A stretch of 64,000 nucleotides of DNA from Xylanimonas cellulosilytica DSM 15894. Lineage in GTDB: Bacteria; Actinomycetota; Actinomycetes; Actinomycetales; Cellulomonadaceae. Of the stretch, positions 4,356 to 37,520 are shown one piece after another; the first letter of the stretch is position 1, and every line of letters starts with the position of its first letter. The stretch lies in the NCBI RefSeq assembly GCF_000024965.1, contig NC_013530.1, positions 1 to 64,000 of the forward strand, given 5' to 3'. The notes beneath the pieces are model-generated. The model saw only the letters and a program-made list of their open reading frames with translations. It was not told the DNA's origin and did not search any database. The translations under genes and the position numbers were made by a program.

Positions 4356-5813
4356 ATGTACGTCTCCCATCTCTCGTTGCTCGACTTCCGCTCGTACGCG
4401 TCCGTCGACGTCGAGCTCGAGCCGGGGCCCAACGCGTTCGTGGGCCGCAACGGCCAGGGGAAGACGAACCTCGTCGAGGCGATCGGCTACGTCGCCACCC
4501 TCGGCTCCCACCGGGTCTCGAACGACGCACCTCTGGTCCGTGCGGGCGCCGAGCGGGCCGTCGTGCGCACCCGCATCGTGCGCGGTGACCGTGCCTCGAC
4601 CGTCGAGCTGGAGATCACGCCCGGCCGCGCGAACCGGGCCCGCATCAACCGCGGTCAGCTCGGCCGCGCCCGCGACGTGCTCGGCATCCTGCGCACCGTC
4701 CTGTTCGCCCCCGAGGACCTCGCCCTCGTCAAGGGCGACCCGGACGGACGCCGCAAGCTGCTCGACCAGCTCGTCGTCCAGCTCCTCCCGCGCGCGGCAG
4801 GGCTGCTCGGGGACTACGAGCGCGTGAACCGCCAGCGTTCGGCGCTGCTGAAGTCGCTGCGCGGTCAGCGTGCGGCAGGCCGCAGCCCGGACCTGGGCAC
4901 GCTGGAGGTGTGGGACGCCAAGGCGGCGCAGCTCGGCGGTCAGATCCTCGGCATGCGCCTTCAGCTCGTACAGGCGATGCGTCCCCATGTCGCGGCGGCG
5001 TACGCGCAGGTCAGTGACGCGGACGGCCATGCGGAGCTCGGCTACCGGTCGAGCCTCGACGCCGTCCTGCCTGACGACGCGGGGGCGTCCGCGGGGGGTG
5101 CGGCGATCCTCCCCGCGGACCTGGCGGATGCCCCGCCGTCGGCCGTCGAGCTGGAGACGCTCCTGCTGGCCGGCATGGCGGCCGCGCGGTCGCAGGAGGT
5201 CGACCGCGGGGTCAGCCTGGTCGGCCCGCACCGCGACGACCTCGTCCTGACCCTCGGTGGGCTTCCTGCGAAGGGGTACGCGAGCCACGGGGAGTCGTGG
5301 TCGTTCGCGCTCGCGCTGCGCCTCGCGTCGTACCGCCTCCTCGGCGGCACCCCGGCTGACGACGGCACCCGAGCTGACGACGGCACCCGAGCTGACGACG
5401 GCACCCGAGCCGACGACGGCGACCGAGCCGACGACGGCGACCGGTCGATGTCGGCGGATCCCACGTCGGCGGACCCTGCGCTTGGCAACCCTGCGCTTGG
5501 CAACCCCGCGCCTGGCGACTCCGTGACCGCAGTTCCCGTGACCGCACACGTGCCGAGACCGGAGCGCCCGCCCGCCGCGTCGCCCTCCGGCGCCCGGTTC
5601 TGGACCGAGGAGCTCGGCCACGACGCCGAGCCCGTCCTCATCCTCGACGACGTGTTCGCCGAGCTCGACCTGCGCCGCCGGGACCGCCTGGCCGAGCTCG
5701 TGGCCCCGGCCCGCCAGGTGCTCGTCACGGCCGCGGTGCCCGACGACGTGCCGTCGGGTCTCATGGCGACGCGCTTCGACGTCGTGACGGGGGCGGTGAC
5801 CCGTGCGTCCTGA
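4356..5813 (+). CDS. recF: DNA replication and repair protein RecF
   Basis: RecF is an SMC-like ATPase that loads RecA at single-strand gaps with RecO and RecR. Walker A GRNGQGKT is at about residues 30-37, and the C-terminal Walker [14 protein letters not shown] at about 426. The product is 485 aa, some 80-100 longer than most RecF. The excess is a low-complexity insert at about residues 330-410, just before Walker B, built from 18-nt units encoding RADDGT-like hexapeptides and 15-nt units encoding PALGN. I start at ATG 4356 because [14 protein letters not shown] is the family N-terminus and the upstream frame only reads through REP repeats. The stop overlaps the dciA-like gene by 11 nt. Confidence 0.95.
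5355..5519 (+). repeat. Tandem minisatellite inside recF
   Basis: Five 18-nt units (consensus GCYGACGACGGCRMCCGR) run at 5355-5444. After a short spacer, three 15-nt units (consensus CCYGCGCYTGGCRAC) run at 5475-5519. Both unit lengths are multiples of three, so copy-number change keeps the RecF frame. The encoded peptide is hydrophilic and looks disordered. Confidence 0.92.
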
Positions 5814-28404: not shown

Positions 28405-28488
28405 GCGCGAGTGGCGGAATAGGCAGACGCGCACGGTTCAGGTCCGTGTGCCCGAAAGGGCGTGGGGGTTCAACTCCCCCCTCGCGCA
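28405..28488 (+). tRNA. tRNA-Leu (anticodon CAG)
   Basis: Class II tRNA with acceptor arms GCGCGAG and CTCGCGC, anticodon stem CACGG/CCGTG with loop TTCAGGT (CAG), a long variable arm (TGCCCGAAAGGGCG) and T-arm GGGGGTTCAACTCCCCC. Discriminator A at 28488; CCA is not encoded. A 77-bp direct repeat begins at the very next base. Confidence 0.95.
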
Positions 28489-28565
28489 CGTTGCAGAAGG
28501 GCCAGGATCGTTGGATTTCCAACGATCCTGGCCCTACGTCGTGCCCGCGCAGGTGCGGGTTTGAG
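28489..28565 (+). repeat. 77-bp direct repeat, left copy (with terminator)
   Basis: This 77-nt segment recurs at 36663-36739 with 71/77 identity and no gap. It abuts the 3' end of tRNA-Leu. Its first half is a perfect 18-bp stem (28498-28515 with 28518-28535); the second half, CGTCGTGCCCGCGC onward, is unstructured. It may be an attachment-site-like boundary, or a dispersed terminator repeat. Confidence 0.85.
28498..28535 (+). terminator. Terminator after tRNA-Leu
   Basis: Perfect 18-bp stem, arms from AGGGCCAGGATCG to its complement, with a 2-4 nt loop, 10 nt past the tRNA. No clear T-tract follows (ACGTCG). Termination is likely from stem strength and position. Confidence 0.75.
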
Positions 28566-28598
28566 GCCAAACGTTTGATGGCTCCGGCGTGTCGCGGG

Positions 28599-28990
28599 TC
28601 AGTTGGGGCGTCCGGCCCAGCCCTTGCGGTCCCGGGGCCCTTCCTCGGCGGTGGGGGTGGTGCCGTACCCGCCGGATACGGGTTGGTCGGCGGTGATCCG
28701 CGGTCATGCCACGGTGGCGGCGCTGGAGGTCCTTGACGGGGTGGTTGGCTCCGCCCTCGATCTGGTTCATGGTCGAGCTGATTGCTAGGCCGTCGAGGTC
28801 CTCGCGCAGGTGGGTGAACAACACTTGCTGGCGGGTGAGTCGTTCCAGGAGCCGGTAGGCGTGCCGGAGGCGGTCATGGGTCCACCACAAGGTCGCGTTC
28901 GCTCGGGGCGGTGGCCTGCTCCCGGGCCTGGATGCGGGTCAGGGCCAGCGAGATCGCCCGTAGCCCCGAAGGGTGTGGCTGTTCCCGCAC
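28599..28990 (-). pseudogene. Degenerate transposase remnant (IS256/IS1249-like C-terminus)
   Basis: On the minus strand, frame pieces encode REQPHPSGLRAISLALT, then after a frameshift near 28885 WWTHDRLRHAYRLLERL, and ISSTMNQIEGGANHPVKD leading to RRHRGMTADHRR. The pattern TNxxEGGxN ... HRGM recalls the catalytic Glu region of IS256-group transposases such as IS1249. A second frame change leads to a GRPN stop at 28599. The 5' two thirds are absent and I see no terminal inverted repeats. This is a fossil, showing past transposition at the left edge of the accessory block. Confidence 0.6.
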
Positions 28991-29081
28991 CGGGTACGGG
29001 CAACTGCTCGCTGGCGTAGGCAGGACATCGCGGCGATCCATGTGGACGCGCCGAGTATGAACACGTGCCGATACGCAGAGC

Positions 29082-29112
29082 GGCCCCGGTCCGCCACAGG
29101 CGGACCGGGGCC
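29082..29112 (-). terminator. Terminator of the secreted-protein gene
   Basis: Perfect 14-bp stem, GGCCCCGGTCCGCC paired with GGCGGACCGGGGCC, and a 3-nt loop, 18 nt beyond the stop of the minus-strand gene at 29131. Confidence 0.8.
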
Positions 29113-29130
29113 ACTCGAGTCGACTGATGA

Positions 29131-29520
29131 CTACCCGAAGTCGGCCGAGGAGATCCGGTTGGCCCAGTTCGCCGACGTGGCGTCGGTGCCGTTCGACAGC
29201 TTCGGGTCGCGGATCTGGCCGCCGCGCGCGGGGTTGTTGAGTGAGATGTTCACGCCCGTGTGGTTGGCCGCGTCGTAGAAGTGCGCGATGCTCGTGCGGC
29301 CGTTGTTGACGATCGAGTTGATGAGGTTGTTCGAGCTGGTCAGCACGACCGAGTTCGCGTAGGTGGCATTCGGAGCGCCGAGATAGTTCTCCGCGATCCA
29401 CAGCCCAGCGCTTCCGACGGGGACGTCGGAGTACGCCGCGTGGGCGGGGGCGGTGCTGGCGAGAAGCCCGGCCAGAGCGATCCCGACGGCGACAGCCGAG
29501 CGGGAGAGGTGACGACGCAT
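29131..29520 (-). CDS. Small secreted protein, beta/gamma-crystallin or I36-inhibitor-like
   Basis: 129 aa with a clear Sec signal peptide: basic MRRHLSR, a hydrophobic core, and cleavage after APAHA. The mature part of about 100 residues has no cysteine. It reads as beta-strands with aromatic and Asn-rich turns (FYDAANHTGVNISL, SANWANRISSADFG). The pattern of hydrophobic-x-aromatic-Gly and a terminal NxxSS stretch resembles secreted crystallin-fold or peptidase-inhibitor I36 proteins of actinobacteria; I rate this match as tentative. A strong terminator follows. ATG 29520 begins the signal peptide; the longer frame to 29670 is rejected. Confidence 0.65.
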   Translation of the reverse strand: MRRHLSRSAVAVGIALAGLLASTAPAHAAYSDVPVGSAGLWIAENYLGAPNATYANSVVLTSSNNLINSIVNNGRTSIAHFYDAANHTGVNISLNNPARGGQIRDPKLSNGTDATSANWANRISSADFG

Positions 29521-29776
29521 GGTCGTGGTCCTTCCGGTTGGTGGCGCGAGCCGGAGATCCCGACCCGCTGCCTCTAGCCTGCCGGGCGAAAACAGGCGGA
29601 ACGAGGAGGTCGGCGCTCTCGAGGCTCGTGAGAAGAACCTCTGTTGCATCCGCGCTGTCTCGTTCGACAACAGCGTCAGCAGAGGTGAGTCGTCAATTTA
29701 TGGCCGTTCGCAGAACTATTAGCCACGTCACATGTTCTCACTGTTTCGTCTTGGGCTGAGAAGCGACGTACTTGGC

Positions 29777-30679
29777 ATGAGACACACCAACCTCGTTGTC
29801 AGGACACGGCTGATCCTGGGCGCATCGGTCGTCTGCGCCGCCGTCGCCTCGCTCACGGCCTGTTCGGCAGAATCCGAGACGACTGGCCTGTCGGCGGACG
29901 CGGTCGCCGAGCGCTACGGCTACCGGGCGACCGAGTCAGCCCTGTCGCCCGTCTACGCGCTCGTTCCGCAGTTTCGTGATCCGGCGGACGGGTACGCCCG
30001 GGATCTCCTTGCACGTCAGTGCCTCCAGGACATCGTCGAGTACACGCCGGTGGTCCCTGGGGCATCCGGTGGTTTCAAGGACGAGCGCACGGGTCAGTGG
30101 GTGCTCGACGAGCCGACGGCGCAGGCGAGCGGGTATCCGTACCTCCGCCCGAAGGACGGGCCCGTTGGCGGCGTGCCCGACGACGTCGTCCTGACGGACG
30201 CGACCCTCGCGGAGATGGAGCGATGCGGCGTCGCTGCCGACGAGCGGCTTGGAACGCCGCCGGCGCGTCTCCTCAACGACATCGAAGCGACCGGCTGGTT
30301 CGCTGCCACCGACTCGCCGGACATGGCCGACGTGATCGGCCAGTGGCGAGAGTGCATGGTCCCGCTCGGTCTGGCGGACCTTCCTGAGGACCCGACGCTG
30401 ATGCCCCCTCGTTCCGTCATCAACGCGGTCGTCGATGCAGAGTCCGAGGCGGCGAACGGTGGATATGGAGCGATGCCGCTCACCGATCGCGAACGCGAGG
30501 TGGCGGTGAGCGACGCGAAGTGTCTCGCACAGGTCGACTACTACGGCATCCAGAATCGCGTTCGGGCGGAGGCCGAGCTGAGCATGATCGGTGAGAACCT
30601 CAAGGAGTTCGAGGCTGTCCGTCGGGAGTACGAGACCTACCAGCGCGGCGTGGACGCCGTGATCGCCGAGCTCGGCTGA
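29777..30679 (+). CDS. Lipoprotein of an ECF-linked export locus
   Basis: 300 aa with a lipobox: hydrophobic LILGASVVCAAVASLTAC with lipidation predicted on the Cys in SLTAC. The mature domain is hydrophilic, has several further Cys residues (QCLQ, RCGV, ECMV, KCLA), and ends in a helical region. No named domain is recognised. It precedes a peptidoglycan-binding adaptor and a MacB-like transporter by only 15 nt and is probably their extracytoplasmic partner. I start at ATG 29777 (MRHTNLVVRTR); the frame is open to 29732. Codon use is somewhat less GC-biased than in the flanking core genes. Confidence 0.75.
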   Translation: MRHTNLVVRTRLILGASVVCAAVASLTACSAESETTGLSADAVAERYGYRATESALSPVYALVPQFRDPADGYARDLLARQCLQDIVEYTPVVPGASGGFKDERTGQWVLDEPTAQASGYPYLRPKDGPVGGVPDDVVLTDATLAEMERCGVAADERLGTPPARLLNDIEATGWFAATDSPDMADVIGQWRECMVPLGLADLPEDPTLMPPRSVINAVVDAESEAANGGYGAMPLTDREREVAVSDAKCLAQVDYYGIQNRVRAEAELSMIGENLKEFEAVRREYETYQRGVDAVIAELG

Positions 30680-30694
30680 GCGTGGGTGACGGTG

Positions 30695-31834
30695 ATGGCG
30701 AACCGAACCGTTCTCAAAGCAGGCGCAGCGGTGCTGGCTGGTGCACTGCTGGTCGGTGGGGGGTGGGTCCTTGCTCAGCAGATGGTCTCTCCGGAACAGG
30801 TGGCCGCCCAGGCCGAACCGCCGCCCCCGACGCCGGTCGTGGCGGCACTGCGCGAGGGCTACCTGCACGGAACTATGACCATGACGGCCACGGCCGTGAG
30901 CAGCGGCGTTCACGAGGTCGTGGCTCCGAAAGCGCTCGACGGGGTCGTGACGTTCAGCGACTTCGCCGTGGCGGGCGAGGTGCAAGCCGGGTCGGCGGTC
31001 GTCCGGGTGAACGGACGTCCGGTGATCGTCATGGCGGGGCCGTTCCCGCTGTACCGGGACCTGACCTCGGGTGACACGGGTGACGACGTGCTCATGCTTC
31101 AGCGGGCGCTCGTCGACGCCGGACACCTGCGCGGAACCCCGGACGGTGTCTTCGGAGCACGCACCGCAGCCGCCGTCCGCGCCCTCTACAGGACGGTCGG
31201 GTTCCCCGCTCCGACCACGGCCGTCGCGCCCGAGCCCGCCGTAGCGGCCTCATCCGCGACGGCGGATGGCGAGCCGCTGGTGGCGCCGGTCCGGCCTGCG
31301 ACGATGGTGCGAGCAGCGGAGCTGGTGTTCACTGGCGCGCTACCCGCGCAGGTCGGGTCTGTCGTACCGGTCGGGGCCACCGTCGAACCGGGCACGGTGC
31401 TGGCGAGCCTCACGGTGGGCGCAACAGAGCTGCGCGCCGATGTGCCACCTGAGGCGATCGGCCCGCTCGCCGTCGGCGCGGCGGCGACGTTCGTTGGTGA
31501 TGGCGGCGCAGCAGGGTTGGCCCAGGTGGAGTCCATCACGCCGGGTCAGGACGGGCAGATGCAGGTGCACTGGTCCCTCGAGGGTGCCGTGGCGGTCGGG
31601 ACGGACTACGTCCTGACGGTGGAGAACCCGGCGGCGCAGGATGCGCCTACCCTGCTGGCACCGATCGCGGCCCTGGTGAGTCGCGGCGGTGTGGACACGG
31701 TCACCGTGCGTGAGGATGACGTGTTCCGTGAGGTCGCGGTCGAGGTCCTCGGCATGCAGGGCGCTGTCGCCGCGATCCGTGCCCAGGACGACGCCGGCGT
31801 GCTGCGCGCGGGGAGCGAGGTGCGCCTTGTCTGA
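30695..31834 (+). CDS. Membrane-fusion-like adaptor with peptidoglycan-binding domain
   Basis: 379 aa. An N-terminal signal anchor (about VLKAGAAVLAGALLVGGGWVL) precedes an extracytoplasmic part. A PG_binding_1 domain (LTSGDTGDDVLMLQRALVDA ... DGVFGARTAAAVRALYR) is inserted in an HlyD/MacA-like adaptor with barrel-sandwich character (VGATVEPGTVLASLTVG). This combination accompanies MacB-type ABC transporters in Gram-positive bacteria and would dock the pump to the cell wall. Start ATG 30695 or GTG 30686; neither has a strong ribosome site. The 3' end overlaps the ABC gene start by 8 nt. Confidence 0.82.
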   Translation: MANRTVLKAGAAVLAGALLVGGGWVLAQQMVSPEQVAAQAEPPPPTPVVAALREGYLHGTMTMTATAVSSGVHEVVAPKALDGVVTFSDFAVAGEVQAGSAVVRVNGRPVIVMAGPFPLYRDLTSGDTGDDVLMLQRALVDAGHLRGTPDGVFGARTAAAVRALYRTVGFPAPTTAVAPEPAVAASSATADGEPLVAPVRPATMVRAAELVFTGALPAQVGSVVPVGATVEPGTVLASLTVGATELRADVPPEAIGPLAVGAAATFVGDGGAAGLAQVESITPGQDGQMQVHWSLEGAVAVGTDYVLTVENPAAQDAPTLLAPIAALVSRGGVDTVTVREDDVFREVAVEVLGMQGAVAAIRAQDDAGVLRAGSEVRLV

Positions 31835-33713
31835 TCAGACGACAGGCACGGCGCCGCTGCTGAGGCTGCGCGATGTCACGCGCACGTTCGGGGACGGGAC
31901 GATCGCTCTCGACGGCGTCAGCGTCGACGTGCGCGCGGGCGAGGTGGTGGCCATCGTCGGCCCGTCAGGGTCGGGCAAGTCGACGCTCCTGAACATCCTC
32001 GGGCTCCTTGACACCCCGACGGAGGGGACGGTCATCCTCGCCGACACCGACGTCGGCGCGCTCGGCGACGGCGCGCGTTCTGACCTGCGCTCCCGTGATC
32101 TCGCGTTCGTGTTCCAGCGCGCCCACCTGCTGTCGAGCCTGTCGGTCGAGGAGAACGTCCGGCTCGGCATCGAGTACTCGCCCGATCATGGCGACGCCCA
32201 CGCGCGAGCGATCGATGCGCTGCGACGCTGCGGCCTCGACGACAAGGCGGCCGCACAGGCACGGACGCTGTCGGGCGGAGAGATGCAGCGCGTCGCCATC
32301 GCGCGCGCACTCGTCCGGCGCGCCCGGCTGTGGCTTGCCGACGAGCCGACGGGGAACCTCGACACCGTCCAGTCCGTCGCGATCATCGACGAGCTGCGCA
32401 ACCACGCACGACAGGCCGGCGCCGCGCTCATCGTCGTGACCCACGAGCCCGAGATCGCCGCACGCCTCGACCGCACGATCACCCTGCGCGACGGTCGCAT
32501 CGTCTGCGACACCGGCACCTGTCTGGCGCCCGTCGTGGCGGCGTCGCCGACGCGACGGCCCCGAGGACACGGCGGGCTGGCACGAGCGATCCGCACCAGC
32601 ACGACCATGCTTCGTGCACGCACGCCCGGCAGCCGCGCCGGAGTCGTCGCGACCGCGCTGGCTGTAGCCCTCGCGGTCACGGCACTCGGTCTGTCGCAGA
32701 GCGCGTCCGCGCAGGTCACGAGCATGTTCGATGCTCAACGCGTCGCTCAGGTCACCGCTTCCCTCTCCCGGAACGCCGATCCGATCGACGCGACTCAGAT
32801 TCGCCTCGACGAGGTACGTGGTTTCCCGGGTGTCACCGGCGCCGAACTGTGGCTCCAGCACCAGCAGGTTCCGCTGAACGTCGGCAACCTCGCAGCCACG
32901 ACGGCCGACGTCGTCGAGACGACGAAGACACCGGACAAGACGACGGGAAGCACCATCGTCTGGGCCGCCGGCGCTGGACCAGAGCTCGGCCCCGGAGACG
33001 CCATCCTCGGCACCGGCCTTGCACGGCGCATCGGGCTGGGCCCGATCGACGCGGGCGCCGAGGTCACTGTGGCCGGGCAGCGCCTGCGCGTCGTCGGGCT
33101 CATGGAGTCGACCCGATCCGGCACAGCCGCGGGCAACGCCTTCGTTGCGGCCGGTTCGGTGGCTGCACTGCCCGGGTCCCGCAACGCCACCCTCTACGTG
33201 ACCACCGCACCGGGCGCCGCTCGACAGGTCGCCGAACGGCTCGCTCCCCTCGCCGATCCCTTCCGGCAGACCGTCATGGAGATCGACCCTGTCCTTGGAG
33301 CCGAAGCGTTCGCCGGCGCCCTCACCGAGTCCGTCGGCGCGAGCCTCCAGGTGCTCGCCGTCGTCGCCGCCTTCGCCGGACTCGGCACCGTCGTGTTCGT
33401 CAACCTTCTCGGCATCACCTCACGCACGGCAGAGCTCGGCGTGCGCCGTGCCTTCGGAGCCAAACGACTCGAGACCGCCGCAATGGTGGCGAGCGAGTGC
33501 GCCGCACGCTCATTCACGGGGGCCATCATCGGTCTCGTCGTCGGCCTCACTGCCATCCTCGCCGTGACGATCACCGCCCGCTGGGAACCCGTGCTCGACC
33601 TGCGCCTGCTCGCCGTACCCCTCCTCGGCGCGCTCGTCTTCGGGCTCGTCGGCGCGATCGCACCCGCGATCCACGCCGCCCGGGTGGAGCCCGCCGATGC
33701 TGTGCGCTCCTGA
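31827..33713 (+). CDS. MacB-like ABC transporter, ATPase fused to FtsX-type permease
   Basis: 628 aa. The N-terminal ATPase (about 1-235) has Walker A GPSGSGKST, Q-loop VFQRAHLL, signature LSGGEMQRVAIARAL and Walker B LWLADEPTGNLD. The permease follows with a membrane helix near 275-295, a large extracytoplasmic MacB_PCD domain, and three C-terminal helices near 520, 570 and 605. MacB-type pumps use ATP to drive extracytoplasmic substrate movement, often of peptides or antibiotics. The start is TTG 31827 with GCGAGG 6 nt upstream, overlapping the adaptor gene by 8 nt. Fusion of both modules plus a PG-binding adaptor suggests a complete pump; substrate unknown. Confidence 0.88.
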   Translation: MSDQTTGTAPLLRLRDVTRTFGDGTIALDGVSVDVRAGEVVAIVGPSGSGKSTLLNILGLLDTPTEGTVILADTDVGALGDGARSDLRSRDLAFVFQRAHLLSSLSVEENVRLGIEYSPDHGDAHARAIDALRRCGLDDKAAAQARTLSGGEMQRVAIARALVRRARLWLADEPTGNLDTVQSVAIIDELRNHARQAGAALIVVTHEPEIAARLDRTITLRDGRIVCDTGTCLAPVVAASPTRRPRGHGGLARAIRTSTTMLRARTPGSRAGVVATALAVALAVTALGLSQSASAQVTSMFDAQRVAQVTASLSRNADPIDATQIRLDEVRGFPGVTGAELWLQHQQVPLNVGNLAATTADVVETTKTPDKTTGSTIVWAAGAGPELGPGDAILGTGLARRIGLGPIDAGAEVTVAGQRLRVVGLMESTRSGTAAGNAFVAAGSVAALPGSRNATLYVTTAPGAARQVAERLAPLADPFRQTVMEIDPVLGAEAFAGALTESVGASLQVLAVVAAFAGLGTVVFVNLLGITSRTAELGVRRAFGAKRLETAAMVASECAARSFTGAIIGLVVGLTAILAVTITARWEPVLDLRLLAVPLLGALVFGLVGAIAPAIHAARVEPADAVRS

Positions 33714-33804
33714 CCGCGCCCACCCGGACACCGATCGGCGCCCCCGCCACGGCGCGCCGGTCAAGGCCGGAGATGCTGGACCGACCTGGCGAGAGAGGGC
33801 ACTG

Positions 33805-34350
33805 ATGCAGGACGAGACGCGCGACGAGGCGTCGTTCACCACCGCGTTCCGCGCCTCCTACGACGACGTGCGCGCCTTCCTCGCCCGACGCGTCGACCCC
33901 CAGGCCGCTGAGGACCTCACCGCCGAGGTCTTCACCCGCGCCTGGAACACCTGGCACCGCTCACCCATCCCGCCCCAGCCCTGGCTCTTCGGCATCGCCC
34001 GCCACCTCGTCGTCGACCGTTACCGCGACACGGAGCGACGCCAACGACTCCAGTCCCGCATGGAGAACGATCGCCCACTCGACCTCGACGAAGCGCGAGC
34101 CATCGACACGAGCCTCGACTTCCGCCACGCGTGGGCCCAGCTCTCCGACCGAGACCGCGAAGTCCTCGCCCTCATCGCCTGGGACGGACTGTCCGTGACC
34201 GACGCTGCCACCGTCATCGGCACGACCCGCGCCGCCTACTCCGTCCGCCTCACACGGGCACGACGCCGACTCGCACACCTGCTCGACCAGGCGGGCCCCA
34301 CCACCGCGTCCGCCACCAGATGCACGACCGTCGAAAGGAGCCGGGTATGA
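33805..34350 (+). CDS. ECF-type RNA polymerase sigma factor
   Basis: 181 aa with sigma region 2 (FRASYDDVRAFLARR, then AEDLTAEVFTRAW and PWLFGIARHLVVDRYR) and region 4 (LSDRDREVLALIAWDGLSVT and the recognition helix AYSVRLTRARRRL). GAGAGAGGG precedes ATG 33805; an earlier in-frame start at 33697 would overlap the transporter. The stop overlaps the next gene by 4 nt, so sigma and partner are translationally coupled. The factor probably controls the lipoprotein/adaptor/ABC genes upstream; its target promoter motif cannot be named from one locus. Confidence 0.9.
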   Translation: MQDETRDEASFTTAFRASYDDVRAFLARRVDPQAAEDLTAEVFTRAWNTWHRSPIPPQPWLFGIARHLVVDRYRDTERRQRLQSRMENDRPLDLDEARAIDTSLDFRHAWAQLSDRDREVLALIAWDGLSVTDAATVIGTTRAAYSVRLTRARRRLAHLLDQAGPTTASATRCTTVERSRV

Positions 34351-35333
34351 ACCACCGCACCGCCGACGACGTCATGGCGATCGTCGCAGCCGCGAACCCC
34401 GTCACCACCCGATCCACGCGCACCGAGACGCTCGACGACCCCTACGCCGAAGGCCTCCTCGCCCGGATCACCGCCACACCCCCCACCCGGCGCGCCGTGG
34501 CCCGTCGGCCGCGACGGCTCTGGACCCGTGCCACCGCACTCCTGTCCGCACTCGCTGCGGCACTCGCCGCCGTGTTCGCCGCCGCCCCAGCCACCGCCAG
34601 CGACGTCCTGCGAGACGCGGCCACGGCCGCCGCCGAGCAAGTCCTCGACACGGGCCAGTACTGGTACGTCAACACCGAGGTCGAGTACCCGGGCCAACCA
34701 GCATTCCCCCTGGAGAGCTGGCACTCCGCAGACATCTACCTGCAACGCAACGGACGCGCCGCCGCGACCGATGCCGCACAGAACGGCCGCGACGAGCTCG
34801 ACCCGGACCTCATCCGGGTCCGCGAGGTCCGCGATCAGGACGGCCACACCGTCGGGTTCGGCGGTGAGCTACGCCTGACCCGCAGCCAGGTCGCGATGCT
34901 CTCGACCGACCGCGACACGCTCCGCCGCCAGGTCCTCCAGCACACCGACCACACCCCGCACGGCGACGACTTCGCCGCCTGGCAGGCCACCGTCGGACTC
35001 CTCTGGTCCGCGCCACTGACACCCGAGCAGCGCCACGCCGCGTGGGAGCTCCTCGCAGACAGCCCTTCGATCCGACACCTCGGCACCATGACCGACTCCG
35101 CCGGGCGAAGTGGTGAGGGCATCGAGGCCGACTGGTCCCTCCGACGCCTCGGACGCCAGACGATCATCGTCGACGTCGAACACGGCACCCTCCTCGAGGT
35201 GCGCGACCATGAGAACGACGGCGTCACCCAGGTCCACCGAACCACCATCCTCGACGCAGGAACCCGCGACCACGCGCCCGACATTCAGCCCTCGGCCTGC
35301 GGCTCGGACAACGCGATCACAACGAGTTGCTGA
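34347..35333 (+). CDS. Membrane protein coupled to ECF sigma (CU044_5270-like), probable anti-sigma or sensor
   Basis: 328 aa. A cytosolic N-terminus (about 1-60) leads to one membrane helix (about ALLSALAAALAAVFAAAPATA) and an extracytoplasmic domain of about 240 residues with GQYWYVNTEVEYPG, then a C-terminal half with VDVEHGTLLEVRD. The layout matches the family called CU044_5270, found downstream of ECF sigma genes. No zinc anti-sigma HxxxCxxC motif is present, so an anti-sigma role is inference from coupling alone. ATG 34347 overlaps the sigma stop (ATGA) and has AAAGGAG upstream. Confidence 0.75.
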   Translation: MNHRTADDVMAIVAAANPVTTRSTRTETLDDPYAEGLLARITATPPTRRAVARRPRRLWTRATALLSALAAALAAVFAAAPATASDVLRDAATAAAEQVLDTGQYWYVNTEVEYPGQPAFPLESWHSADIYLQRNGRAAATDAAQNGRDELDPDLIRVREVRDQDGHTVGFGGELRLTRSQVAMLSTDRDTLRRQVLQHTDHTPHGDDFAAWQATVGLLWSAPLTPEQRHAAWELLADSPSIRHLGTMTDSAGRSGEGIEADWSLRRLGRQTIIVDVEHGTLLEVRDHENDGVTQVHRTTILDAGTRDHAPDIQPSACGSDNAITTSC

Positions 35334-35368
35334 CGGGTTCTGCGCGGCCATCACGGGCAGAACCCGTC
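35332..35368 (+). terminator. Terminator of the ECF locus
   Basis: 12-bp perfect stem, GACGGGTTCTGC with GCAGAACCCGTC, and a 13-nt loop, followed by CTTC. It begins at the last bases of the stop codon. Confidence 0.7.
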
Positions 35369-35465
35369 CTTCGGGCGCCACGGCGCCAGCCCGGGTGGGC
35401 TTTACGCCATCCGGCCCATATTATCAAGTCTTGTTAAGAACGTTGTGTCGCGTTAAGTTTTACGC

Positions 35466-36656
35466 ATGGATCGTGCTCGGAACCCGTACACGCCCAACGC
35501 CGGCGCGCCGCCTCGCTACTTCGCTGGCCGTGCTGCGGAGGTCGAGGACTTCCGCATTCTCCTGAAGCGGCTTGCGGCCGGGTACACGGAACAGTCCGTC
35601 GTCGTGACTGGCCTCCGGGGTGTGGGCAAGACGGTCCTGCTTGGGGAGTACCGACGGATCGCCGATGAAGAGAGTTGGGTGGCCGTCGACGCGGAGGTCT
35701 CGAAGAACACGGACTTCGGCCCGCAGATGGCGAACCTCGCCCGGCGTGCGCTCCTCCAGGTCTCGCCTCGTGCACGTTGGGGTGATCGAGCGAAGGCCGC
35801 CGCCGCCGCGGTGAAGTCCTTCTCGTTGACGGTGCAGCCGGACGGGTCGCTCGCCGGCGGCCTCGACGTCGAGCGCGCCTGGGGCAAGGCCGACACGGGC
35901 ATCCTGAACGAGGACCTCGCGGACGTCTTCGAGGCGGTCGGCGAGGCCGCAAGAGAGAAGGACTCAGGGGTGGTCTTTCTCTTCGACGAGATCCAGTTTC
36001 TCCACAAGACAGCGCTCGAGGCCCTCATCGGCGCCGTGCACCGCACGGTGCAACGACGGCTTCCGGTGACGTTCGCTGGTGCCGGACTGCCGCAGCTTCC
36101 CGGGCTGGCGGGCGAGGCCAAGTCGTACGCCGAGCGCCTCTTCAAATTCCCCCTCATCGGGGAGCTGCCCGAGCCGGCAGCACGGGACGCGCTCGTGCGT
36201 CCCGCCCGGGCGGAGGGTGTCGACTACGAACCCGCAGCGGTCGACGAGATCATCCGCTACACGGAGGGCTACCCGTACTTCCTCCAGGAGTACGGCCGAG
36301 CGGCGTGGAACATCGCCGAAGGGCCGACGATCACCGCGAGCGACGTCGCGCTGGCCGGTGAGGTCGTCGATGCCGAGCTCGACGAGAGCTTCTTCCGGGC
36401 GCGAGCCCAGCGGTCGTCTCCGGAGGAGCTCCGGTACATGCGGGCGATGGCCGAGCTGGGTGCGGACGCCCAGAAGGCGGGTGACGTCGCCACGGTGCTC
36501 GGCAAGGCTTCCGAGCAGGTCGCGCCGATCCGTGCCCGCCTCATCAACAAGGGACTGCTGTTCACGCCGCGGCACGGGTACGCGAAGTTTACGGTCCCGC
36601 AGTTCGACCGGTTCATGAAGCGCTACATGGAGCTCGACTCCGTCCCGCCCGCCTGA
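35466..36656 (+). CDS. AAA ATPase, Orc1/Cdc6-STAND-like ATP-binding protein
   Basis: 396 aa. An N-terminal motif (PPRYFAGRAAEVEDF) precedes Walker A GLRGVGKT (about 55) and Walker B VVFLFDEIQFL (about 170). A sensor-like GAGLPQLPGL and a C-terminal winged-helix-like region (VATVLGKASEQVAPIRARL, HGYAKFTVPQFDRFMKRY) complete it. This is the common stand-alone actinobacterial ATP-binding protein related to STAND/MalT-type NTPases. Such genes occur in mobile or defence contexts, but no partner is seen here. The short upstream region is AT-rich (about 35418-35465). The right 77-bp repeat begins 7 nt after the stop. Confidence 0.8.
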   Translation: MDRARNPYTPNAGAPPRYFAGRAAEVEDFRILLKRLAAGYTEQSVVVTGLRGVGKTVLLGEYRRIADEESWVAVDAEVSKNTDFGPQMANLARRALLQVSPRARWGDRAKAAAAAVKSFSLTVQPDGSLAGGLDVERAWGKADTGILNEDLADVFEAVGEAAREKDSGVVFLFDEIQFLHKTALEALIGAVHRTVQRRLPVTFAGAGLPQLPGLAGEAKSYAERLFKFPLIGELPEPAARDALVRPARAEGVDYEPAAVDEIIRYTEGYPYFLQEYGRAAWNIAEGPTITASDVALAGEVVDAELDESFFRARAQRSSPEELRYMRAMAELGADAQKAGDVATVLGKASEQVAPIRARLINKGLLFTPRHGYAKFTVPQFDRFMKRYMELDSVPPA

Positions 36657-36662
36657 CAGCAC

Positions 36663-36739
36663 CGTTGCAGAAGGGCCGGGATCGTTGGATGTCCAACGAT
36701 CCTGGCCCTTCGTCGTGCCCGCGCGGGTGCGGGCCTGAG
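36663..36739 (+). repeat. 77-bp direct repeat, right copy (with terminator)
   Basis: Second copy of the repeat that follows tRNA-Leu at 28489, differing at six positions. The stem (36671-36710) is kept with one G-U pair and gains a terminal A-T pair, which suggests selection for the hairpin. It follows the AAA ATPase stop and closes the accessory block. No tRNA fragment is present here. Confidence 0.85.
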
Positions 36740-36782
36740 CGGCGTCGCTGCGAATGGTTCGTCGTCGGGCGACGATGGAGCC

Positions 36783-37136
36783 GTGCCCGCAGACCTGGTC
36801 CTGAAGCGCATCTATGACGAGGTGTCGCCCGACGACGGTTGCCGCGTCCTGGTCGACCGGCTGTGGCCGCGCGGGGTGTCGAAGGAGCGGGCGGCGCTCG
36901 ACCTGTGGCTCAAGGAGGCGGCCCCCTCCCCCGAGCTGCGCACGGCGTGGCACCACGACCCGGCACGGTTCGACGAGTTCGCCGAGGCCTACCGCGCGGA
37001 GCTGGCCACGAACCCTGCCGTCGAGCAGCTCCGGGAACTCAGGGCCTCGCACGAGCGGGTGACGCTCCTCTTCGCCGCGCACGACCCGGAGGTCAATCAC
37101 GTGGTGGTGCTCCGGGACGTCATCGTCGGCGAGTGA
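36783..37136 (+). CDS. DUF488 family protein
   Basis: 117 aa of the DUF488/YeaO family, of unknown biochemical function. Typical motifs are seen: LKRIYDEVSPDDGCRVLVDR, LWPRGVSKERAALDLWLKE, APSPELRTAWHHDPARFDEF, and a C-terminal VTLLFAAHDPEVNHVVVL. A conserved Arg/Trp/His set suggests an enzyme-like surface. GTG 36783 is the likely start. It stands alone, just outside the right direct repeat. Confidence 0.9.
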   Translation: MPADLVLKRIYDEVSPDDGCRVLVDRLWPRGVSKERAALDLWLKEAAPSPELRTAWHHDPARFDEFAEAYRAELATNPAVEQLRELRASHERVTLLFAAHDPEVNHVVVLRDVIVGE

Positions 37137-37520
37137 GCCGCCCGGAGGCTCGCTGCCGACATCGGCGCGCCACCGACCGCGTGCGGAGGCAAATGCAACT
37201 TCAAATGTCACCAAGGTGGTTACATTTTGAGGTGTCTGGACCGCCGGAGGCATGGAAGAGCCCGCGGGCTGGGAGTCGCCTCCCTGCCGTGCTGGACGAG
37301 GGCACGGCGCCCGCGGGCTCCGGTGGTCGCGTCGAGGTCGCCACCGAGTCCTGTCGTCGTCGGCCCTGACGGGTGTCGGCGACGGGAGAATCAGGACGCG
37401 CTAGCGCGCGGCCACCTCATCGGTCCGAAGGAACTTCATGTTCTCGGATCACCTCCCTTCTGATGTGCGAGCGACGTTACGCCCGCCCGCCCCGCCGGTC
37501 TACGGGTTTTGGCCAGGAAG
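37137..37520. other. Gene-poor interval with a dyad
   Basis: 384 bp. An imperfect dyad lies at about 37203-37232: CAAATGTCACC on the left and GGTGGTTACATTTTG on the right, an AT-rich island in GC-rich surroundings, possibly an operator. A 58-codon open frame (37193-37369) runs through it and has no clear ribosome site; I do not call it a gene. The 3' part holds nothing I recognise. Confidence 0.45.

Follow-up and report, generated by a model that had tools for sequence, protein, structure and literature searches.

The chromosome of the soil actinobacterium Xylanimonas cellulosilytica (3,742,776 bases, in a genome of 3,831,380 bases that includes a second replicon of 88,604) begins with the 64,000-nucleotide stretch analysed here, which we call the window. 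A first-pass annotation had described five consecutive genes between 29777 and 35333 as a wall-docked pump with its own sigma factor. The five open reading frames and their coordinates are confirmed; all lie on the plus strand with overlaps or short gaps, and they encode a lipoprotein, an adaptor, an ATP-binding cassette (ABC) transporter fusion, an extracytoplasmic function (ECF) sigma factor and a membrane protein, referred to below as the partner. The genes and their order stand, but the set was incomplete, as it omitted a divergent gene at 29131-29520 for a secreted protein of the I36 family. The earlier interpretation is partly supported and is better extended to a mobile, modular system of six parts. 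The features of the region are as follows:

28405-28489, plus strand: tRNA-Leu(CAG), left edge of an integration hotspot (ARAGORN)
29131-29520, minus strand: small secreted I36-family protein (PF03995; Sec signal peptide)
29635-29659, plus strand: candidate ECF promoter GAACC-N15-CTGTC, speculative, 5' of the lipoprotein gene (MibX-like consensus)
29777-30679, plus strand: lipoprotein with lipobox LTAC/S, helical, of an unnamed family
30695 (or GTG 30686)-31834, plus strand: MacA/HlyD-like membrane-anchored adaptor with Pfam PG_binding_1 and one N-terminal transmembrane (TM) helix
31827 (TTG)-33713, plus strand: MacB-type one-chain ABC transporter (Pfam; motifs)
33805-34350, plus strand: ECF sigma factor, regions 2 and 4 (Pfam; TIGR02937)
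34347-35333, plus strand: partner, a sigma-coupled single-pass membrane protein, CU044_5270-like (NF038083 match; structure model)

The adaptor gene follows the lipoprotein gene by 15 bp, or by 6 bp if the GTG start is used, and its reading frame overlaps that of the MacB-type fusion by 8 bp. A gap of 91 bp separates the fusion from the sigma gene, which overlaps the partner gene by 4 bp, and the I36 gene diverges from the lipoprotein gene at a distance of 256 bp. A scan of the region, of a kind that is weak for such G+C-rich DNA, revealed no terminator-like site, the gap between the fusion and the sigma gene included.

Proteins of the locus

The I36 protein has 129 residues, a Sec signal peptide (AHA/AYSD) and no cysteine, and matches the Pfam peptidase inhibitor I36 family, PF03995, at 29.5 bits (cut-off 21.1), as do 10 of 10 aligned homologues. 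SMPI-like I36 inhibitors are disulfide-stabilised, a feature that the cysteine-free window protein does not have; a D-C...C pair is kept in several of the aligned homologues. Protein S, a beta-gamma crystallin, was matched weakly (E 0.002) by a profile of the I36 relatives.

The lipoprotein carries the expected lipobox, with Cys29 as its cysteine, and family alignments show further conserved cysteines at positions 82, 150, 193 and 249 (Cys82, Cys150, Cys193 and Cys249). Its AlphaFold2 model is all-helical (mean pLDDT 87.5). None of 26 family members matched Pfam or NCBIfam, no relatives were present in plasmid and phage collections, and Foldseek and VIA-align returned no credible match in the PDB (best Z 3.9), which does not by itself establish a new fold.

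In the ABC fusion, ABC_tran (115.6 bits), MacB_PCD (46.3) and FtsX (42.2) all exceed their Pfam cut-offs within one chain, built as an ATPase, four TM helices, a MacB_PCD ectodomain and FtsX, with Walker A, Q-loop, signature and H-loop motifs intact. Its best solved relative is MacB (5nik, E 6e-57, the match lying mostly in the ATPase), and its score against the macrolide MacB equivalog NF007826 is 216 bits, below the curated cut-off of 966. These domains bear out the reading of a one-gene, MacB-type ATPase-permease paired with a peptidoglycan-binding adaptor. That the pump is docked to the wall is a more qualified statement: PG_binding_1 does score above its cut-off in the adaptor (31.1 bits against 23, and 36.8 bits in the homologue at L037), but the call rests on a partial match over 36 residues (128-163, 36 of 57 profile positions). 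Residues 224-361 of the adaptor weakly match a CzcB-type adaptor profile (20.2 bits against a cut-off of 319) in a test for lipoyl and barrel domains of membrane fusion proteins. Judged by eye, PG_binding_1 would occupy the place of the MacA alpha-hairpin, between two apparent lipoyl halves. The genome also holds further adaptor-ATPase-permease paralogues (L041, L043 and L044); in each case a short protein comes first, with a W..CM-like motif that resembles part of the lipoprotein.

The ECF sigma assignment is upheld, since Sigma70_r2 (39.2 bits) and Sigma70_r4_2 (36.3) are both over their Pfam cut-offs and TIGR02937 scores 54.9 bits against a cut-off of 42.9. The partner matches NF038083 (CU044_5270) over 250 residues at 88.1 bits, below the curated cut-off of 100, and two homologues elsewhere in the genome exceed that value (C2:72944, 156 bits; C1:926023, 103 bits). 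As annotated earlier, it is a single-pass protein without the zinc anti-sigma motif: residues 1-58 have no HxxxCxxC, one histidine only and no cysteine, and a cytoplasmic N-terminus is followed by one TM helix, at 59-78 in the model (pLDDT 78.8). It is plausible from gene overlap and topology that the partner is a non-zinc anti-sigma factor. Its outer domain (81-325) is modelled with high pLDDT by AlphaFold2, and in Foldseek (E from 7e-5) it is led by RseB, MucB, LprG and LolA. In VIA-align, RseB and MucB match at Z 8-8.5 and rmsd 4.6-4.9 (RseB at Z 8.5, rmsd 4.6 and 146 aligned residues), a level near the Z of about 8 that can arise from common folds; LprG and LolA come next, and nearly all leading matches belong to the LolA-like superfamily. 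The partner sequence itself had no match in the PDB. RseB and MucB are envelope sensors that act on the anti-sigma factors RseA and MucA, and LolA and LprG carry lipid-linked molecules. Because the outer domain is predicted to be RseB/MucB/LolA-like, the partner is probably a one-piece anti-sigma factor and sensor. CU044_5270, to which it is related by sequence, is a known neighbourhood family.

Conservation and mobility

Related loci were collected with the adaptor and the lipoprotein as baits. The order lipoprotein-adaptor-MacB-sigma-partner recurs in a sister species (G001, locus L034) and in three species of a second genus (L084, L086 and L088 of G179, G181 and G180), so that the five genes form one co-conserved unit and are not chance neighbours. 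L034, the closest syntenic copy, is decaying: its lipoprotein gene contains a stop, and an apparent transposase insertion interrupts its partner gene.

Co-conserved does not mean fixed, as the sigma-partner pair varies in place and presence. The genomes G001 and G003 have I36-sigma-partner-I36-lipoprotein-adaptor-MacB, of which a similar set with a split ABC lies at 880 kb in the window's own genome (L153); G002 (L040) has sigma-partner-lipoprotein-adaptor-ATPase-permease, and in G284 (L135) a divergent sigma-partner adjoins I36-lipoprotein-adaptor-MacB. The last four genes occur alone in G007, G108, G054, G036, G060, G342 and others. At L039 in G007 the place of sigma-partner, upstream of the four, is taken by a gene for a LuxR-type regulator (4357-5421).

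Counts were taken over 28 related loci, most of them picked by lipoprotein or adaptor similarity and not by I36, and over 14 comparison loci of a vertically kept housekeeping paralogue (lipoprotein-adaptor-ATPase-permease). In 18 of the 28, against 0 of the 14, the lipoprotein gene has an I36 gene no more than 1.5 kb away, sometimes in divergent orientation like that of the window (L136, G229). A partner gene (found with a hidden Markov model of the partner) occurs within 6 kb in 9 against 0 and a sigma gene over the same range in 13 against 1; some of the loci are related to one another, so that the events counted are non-independent. Two loci, L153 and L164, came from a search with I36 and CU044_5270, and neither is among the 18. 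The most widely shared core is lipoprotein-adaptor-MacB with a secreted I36 gene; the sigma-partner pair is often added to it, but can be missing or replaced by another. Since I36 and lipoprotein genes remain paired where adaptor and MacB are absent (L085, L142, L143, L096 and L164), they are the tightest pair, which argues that the lipoprotein may act on, or with, the I36 protein. In 13 complete loci, I36 divergence is correlated with the divergence of lipoprotein, adaptor and MacB (Spearman 0.43-0.68), which is what inheritance of the whole module would produce.

The I36 gene is also linked to the partner family. In the window's own genome 5 of 5 I36 genes and 4 of 4 strong CU044_5270 genes lie together, in four places that include the plasmid, where a set of sigma, CU044_5270 and I36 genes that lacks a pump (L152, G000:C2, near 72.9-74.7 kb) includes the genome's best CU044_5270 match, at 156 bits. 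Across 148 Actinobacteria genomes, 22 of 94 I36 genes have a CU044_5270 gene no more than 6.5 kb away, where chance would give 0.35 (about 60-fold), and outside Micrococcales 14 of 86 do so against 0.25 expected. The 6.5-kb limit was chosen after seeing the window's own spacing, and most pairs are far closer, at less than 2 kb; CU044_5270 genes were counted at E <1e-12, the listed matches being complete except at weak scores.

The module is mobile. In G003 three copies of a related module (L036, L037 and L038) are 99.97-99.99% identical over 8.79 kb within different flanks, and G001 holds one further 99.9% copy (L035) with a gap at an I36 gene. The unit comprises I36-sigma-partner-I36-lipoprotein-adaptor-MacB and a DDE transposase gene (PF13701), and is bounded by the imperfect inverted repeats CTCAGCCCAAATCCACCG and CTGAGCCTGAATCCACCG. 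In the window the operon is flanked by tRNA-Leu(CAG)/fhaA on one side and a conserved gene of NAD(P)-binding type on the other, in a hypervariable hotspot after the tRNA gene (28405-37520) that carries five different cargoes in five sister genomes. The fit of the operon genes to the codon usage of the surroundings is 0.24-0.30 per residue, and nearly all neighbours fit better, typically at 0.4-0.7.

Downstream of the operon lie an AAA_16-type ATPase gene (35466-36656), a relative of which, 37.5% identical, adjoins the I36-lipoprotein pair in L142 (10298-11410), and a match to the actinobacterial small RNA Ms_IGR-5 (Rfam RF02471, 61.6 bits, 37252-37466, minus strand).

A possible mechanism and its alternatives

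With the observed gene content, domains, co-conservation and mobility and the predicted fold of the partner as its starting point, our tentative reading, to which we give a probability of about 0.45, is that the locus encodes a sigma-regulated protection module resembling YknWXYZ and MacAB, moving horizontally and dedicated to a secreted I36-type protein. The I36 protein would be exported by Sec and produced beside the lipoprotein, which may serve on the membrane as a substrate-capturing or immunity subunit. The wall-anchored adaptor and the MacB-type ABC protein would form an exporter of the mechanotransmission style, clearing the I36 protein as its putative cognate substrate, or molecules that attack the envelope there, off the external face of the membrane and driving them outward into or beyond the wall. 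The CU044_5270-like protein, as gene overlap and topology suggest, may bind and hold the ECF sigma factor until its outer domain, predicted to be RseB/LolA-like, detects envelope damage or the ligand, upon which the sigma factor would be freed and expression of the module would rise.

Several observations weigh against this proposal. A nearby I36 gene is absent from pump loci L034, L084/L086/L088, L138-L140, L144 and L040, several pumps have no sigma gene, and the sigma genes near pumps fall in at least three branches of the sigma tree; a single origin of the pump-linked sigma factors, also considered, is not supported by that tree. Members of the I36 family are known as protease inhibitors, not as toxins, and the structural matches of the partner have the Z values already noted. 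A search for a shared ECF promoter (GAAC-N15-18-YGTC) had hits in 2 of the 29 upstream regions, where 1.0 would be expected, and an unbiased dyad search of the upstream regions did no better than shuffles. Since no shared promoter motif emerged, the sigma factor is a putative regulator of the pump and the site at 29635 is a candidate only. This site resembles the MibX consensus, GAACC-N15-GCTAC (PMC4973701), and its conservation in relatives does not exceed chance.

One possibility, which we consider somewhat unlikely, is a generic efflux pump for peptides or antibiotics under its own envelope-stress sigma factor, with the I36 protein as a co-regulated defence product such as an inhibitor of foreign proteases. 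The MacB-type domains would suit such a pump, as would two precedents, Spr0693-0695, a Gram-positive MacAB-like system that gives resistance to antibiotics and antimicrobial peptides (PMC5768738), and YknWXYZ, which pumps a peptide toxin (PMC4887032). However, the repeated pairing of I36 and lipoprotein genes without a pump exceeds what a generic defence product would need. Searches of anti-phage defence libraries gave generic ABC/AAA matches only. The adjacency of the I36 and lipoprotein genes could also fit an export or assembly role, in which the ABC protein and the lipoprotein release, fold or anchor the I36 protein to the wall after Sec export, as a delivered effector or surface protein that is no threat to its producer. 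This is improbable: the diversification of I36 with the pump components and the extraction of lipoproteins by LolCDE, a branch of the same superfamily, are in its favour, but the Sec signal peptide makes export independent of the pump and correlated trees arise from co-inheritance alone. A machine like FtsEX, driving a cell-wall enzyme through the peptidoglycan-binding adaptor, would account for the FtsX domain and the wall-binding adaptor, but we rate it very low because the module encodes no hydrolase, and the ectodomain is MacB_PCD.

The regulator raises a separate question, as sigma-partner might merely share the island with a pump that is constitutive or driven by sigma-70. We regard this as unlikely. 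It would explain the 91-bp gap, the lack of a shared promoter and the fact that sigma-partner is missing from most pump loci and is drawn from several branches, but sigma-partner is found repeatedly with I36 and the pump, in several families and three arrangements, and the gap holds no terminator-like site. A broader extension of the protection reading is also doubtful. In it, actinobacteria would widely share a system of signalling and self-protection that has small secreted I36 proteins as its variable effector. Its other parts would be an ECF sigma factor, a CU044_5270 protein that resembles RseA/RseB in one piece, a dedicated lipoprotein from a new family and, in many cases, a MacB exporter anchored to the wall; I36 would be both the signal for the sensor and the threat that lipoprotein and pump protect against, and spread would be by transposons and tRNA hotspots.

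Comparison with known systems

YknWXYZ, which in Bacillus is under the ECF sigma factor sigma-W, likewise pairs a MacA/MacB-like adaptor with an ABC exporter in a Gram-positive cell. It differs in that YknYZ is split, no peptidoglycan-binding domain is named, the sigma gene lies outside the operon and there is no I36 protein. Moreover, it has YknW, a membrane protein of the Yip1 family, as its fourth part, where the window operon has no such gene but a lipoprotein without a Pfam match. What YknWXYZ protects against is a secreted peptide of the cell's own making, the SDP toxin (PMC4887032). Spr0693-0694-0695 of Streptococcus pneumoniae is also a Gram-positive MacAB-like pump, the adaptor of which has been proposed to span the inner wall zone (PMC5768738). 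That adaptor carries a nanotube of alpha-helical hairpins, whereas here a peptidoglycan-binding domain seems to stand in that place, and the system has no sigma factor, lipoprotein or I36 protein. Gram-positive actinobacteria may thus have a MacA-like adaptor whose hairpin for docking to an outer membrane has given way to a wall-binding domain.

Microbisporicin immunity provides an actinobacterial parallel, with an ECF sigma factor, a membrane anti-sigma factor and producer-immunity ABC transporters, and MibQ, which is implicated in immunity, is a lipoprotein. There MibX/MibW act with MibEF, MibYZ and MibQ (PMC4973701). The Mib genes are tied to a lanthipeptide cluster, whereas our locus has no biosynthesis genes (by Pfam, none of seven proteins scanned in the island at 28.5-37.2 kb is a Lan enzyme) and the folded I36 protein is the candidate ligand.

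The CU044_5270 family itself is matched by the partner in sequence and in its position beside an ECF sigma gene, with the reservation that the partner falls below the curated cut-off. Our literature search found no paper on CU044_5270 or 'inhibitor family I36', and neither the RseB/LolA-like fold nor the I36 linkage of CU044_5270 is stated in the sources consulted. Three families without an assigned role (the non-classical I36 secreted proteins, CU044_5270 and the unnamed lipoprotein) gain a shared genomic setting and, therefore, a directly testable role. Finally, RseA/RseB and MucA/MucB also couple a membrane-spanning protein to an ECF sigma factor and include an RseB-like outer domain, but they do so with two proteins where the window has one chain, and their likeness to the partner lies in the predicted fold only, with no sequence match by hidden Markov model. 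A stress sensor of the RseA/RseB type that consists of one protein may, on this view, exist in Gram-positive actinobacteria.

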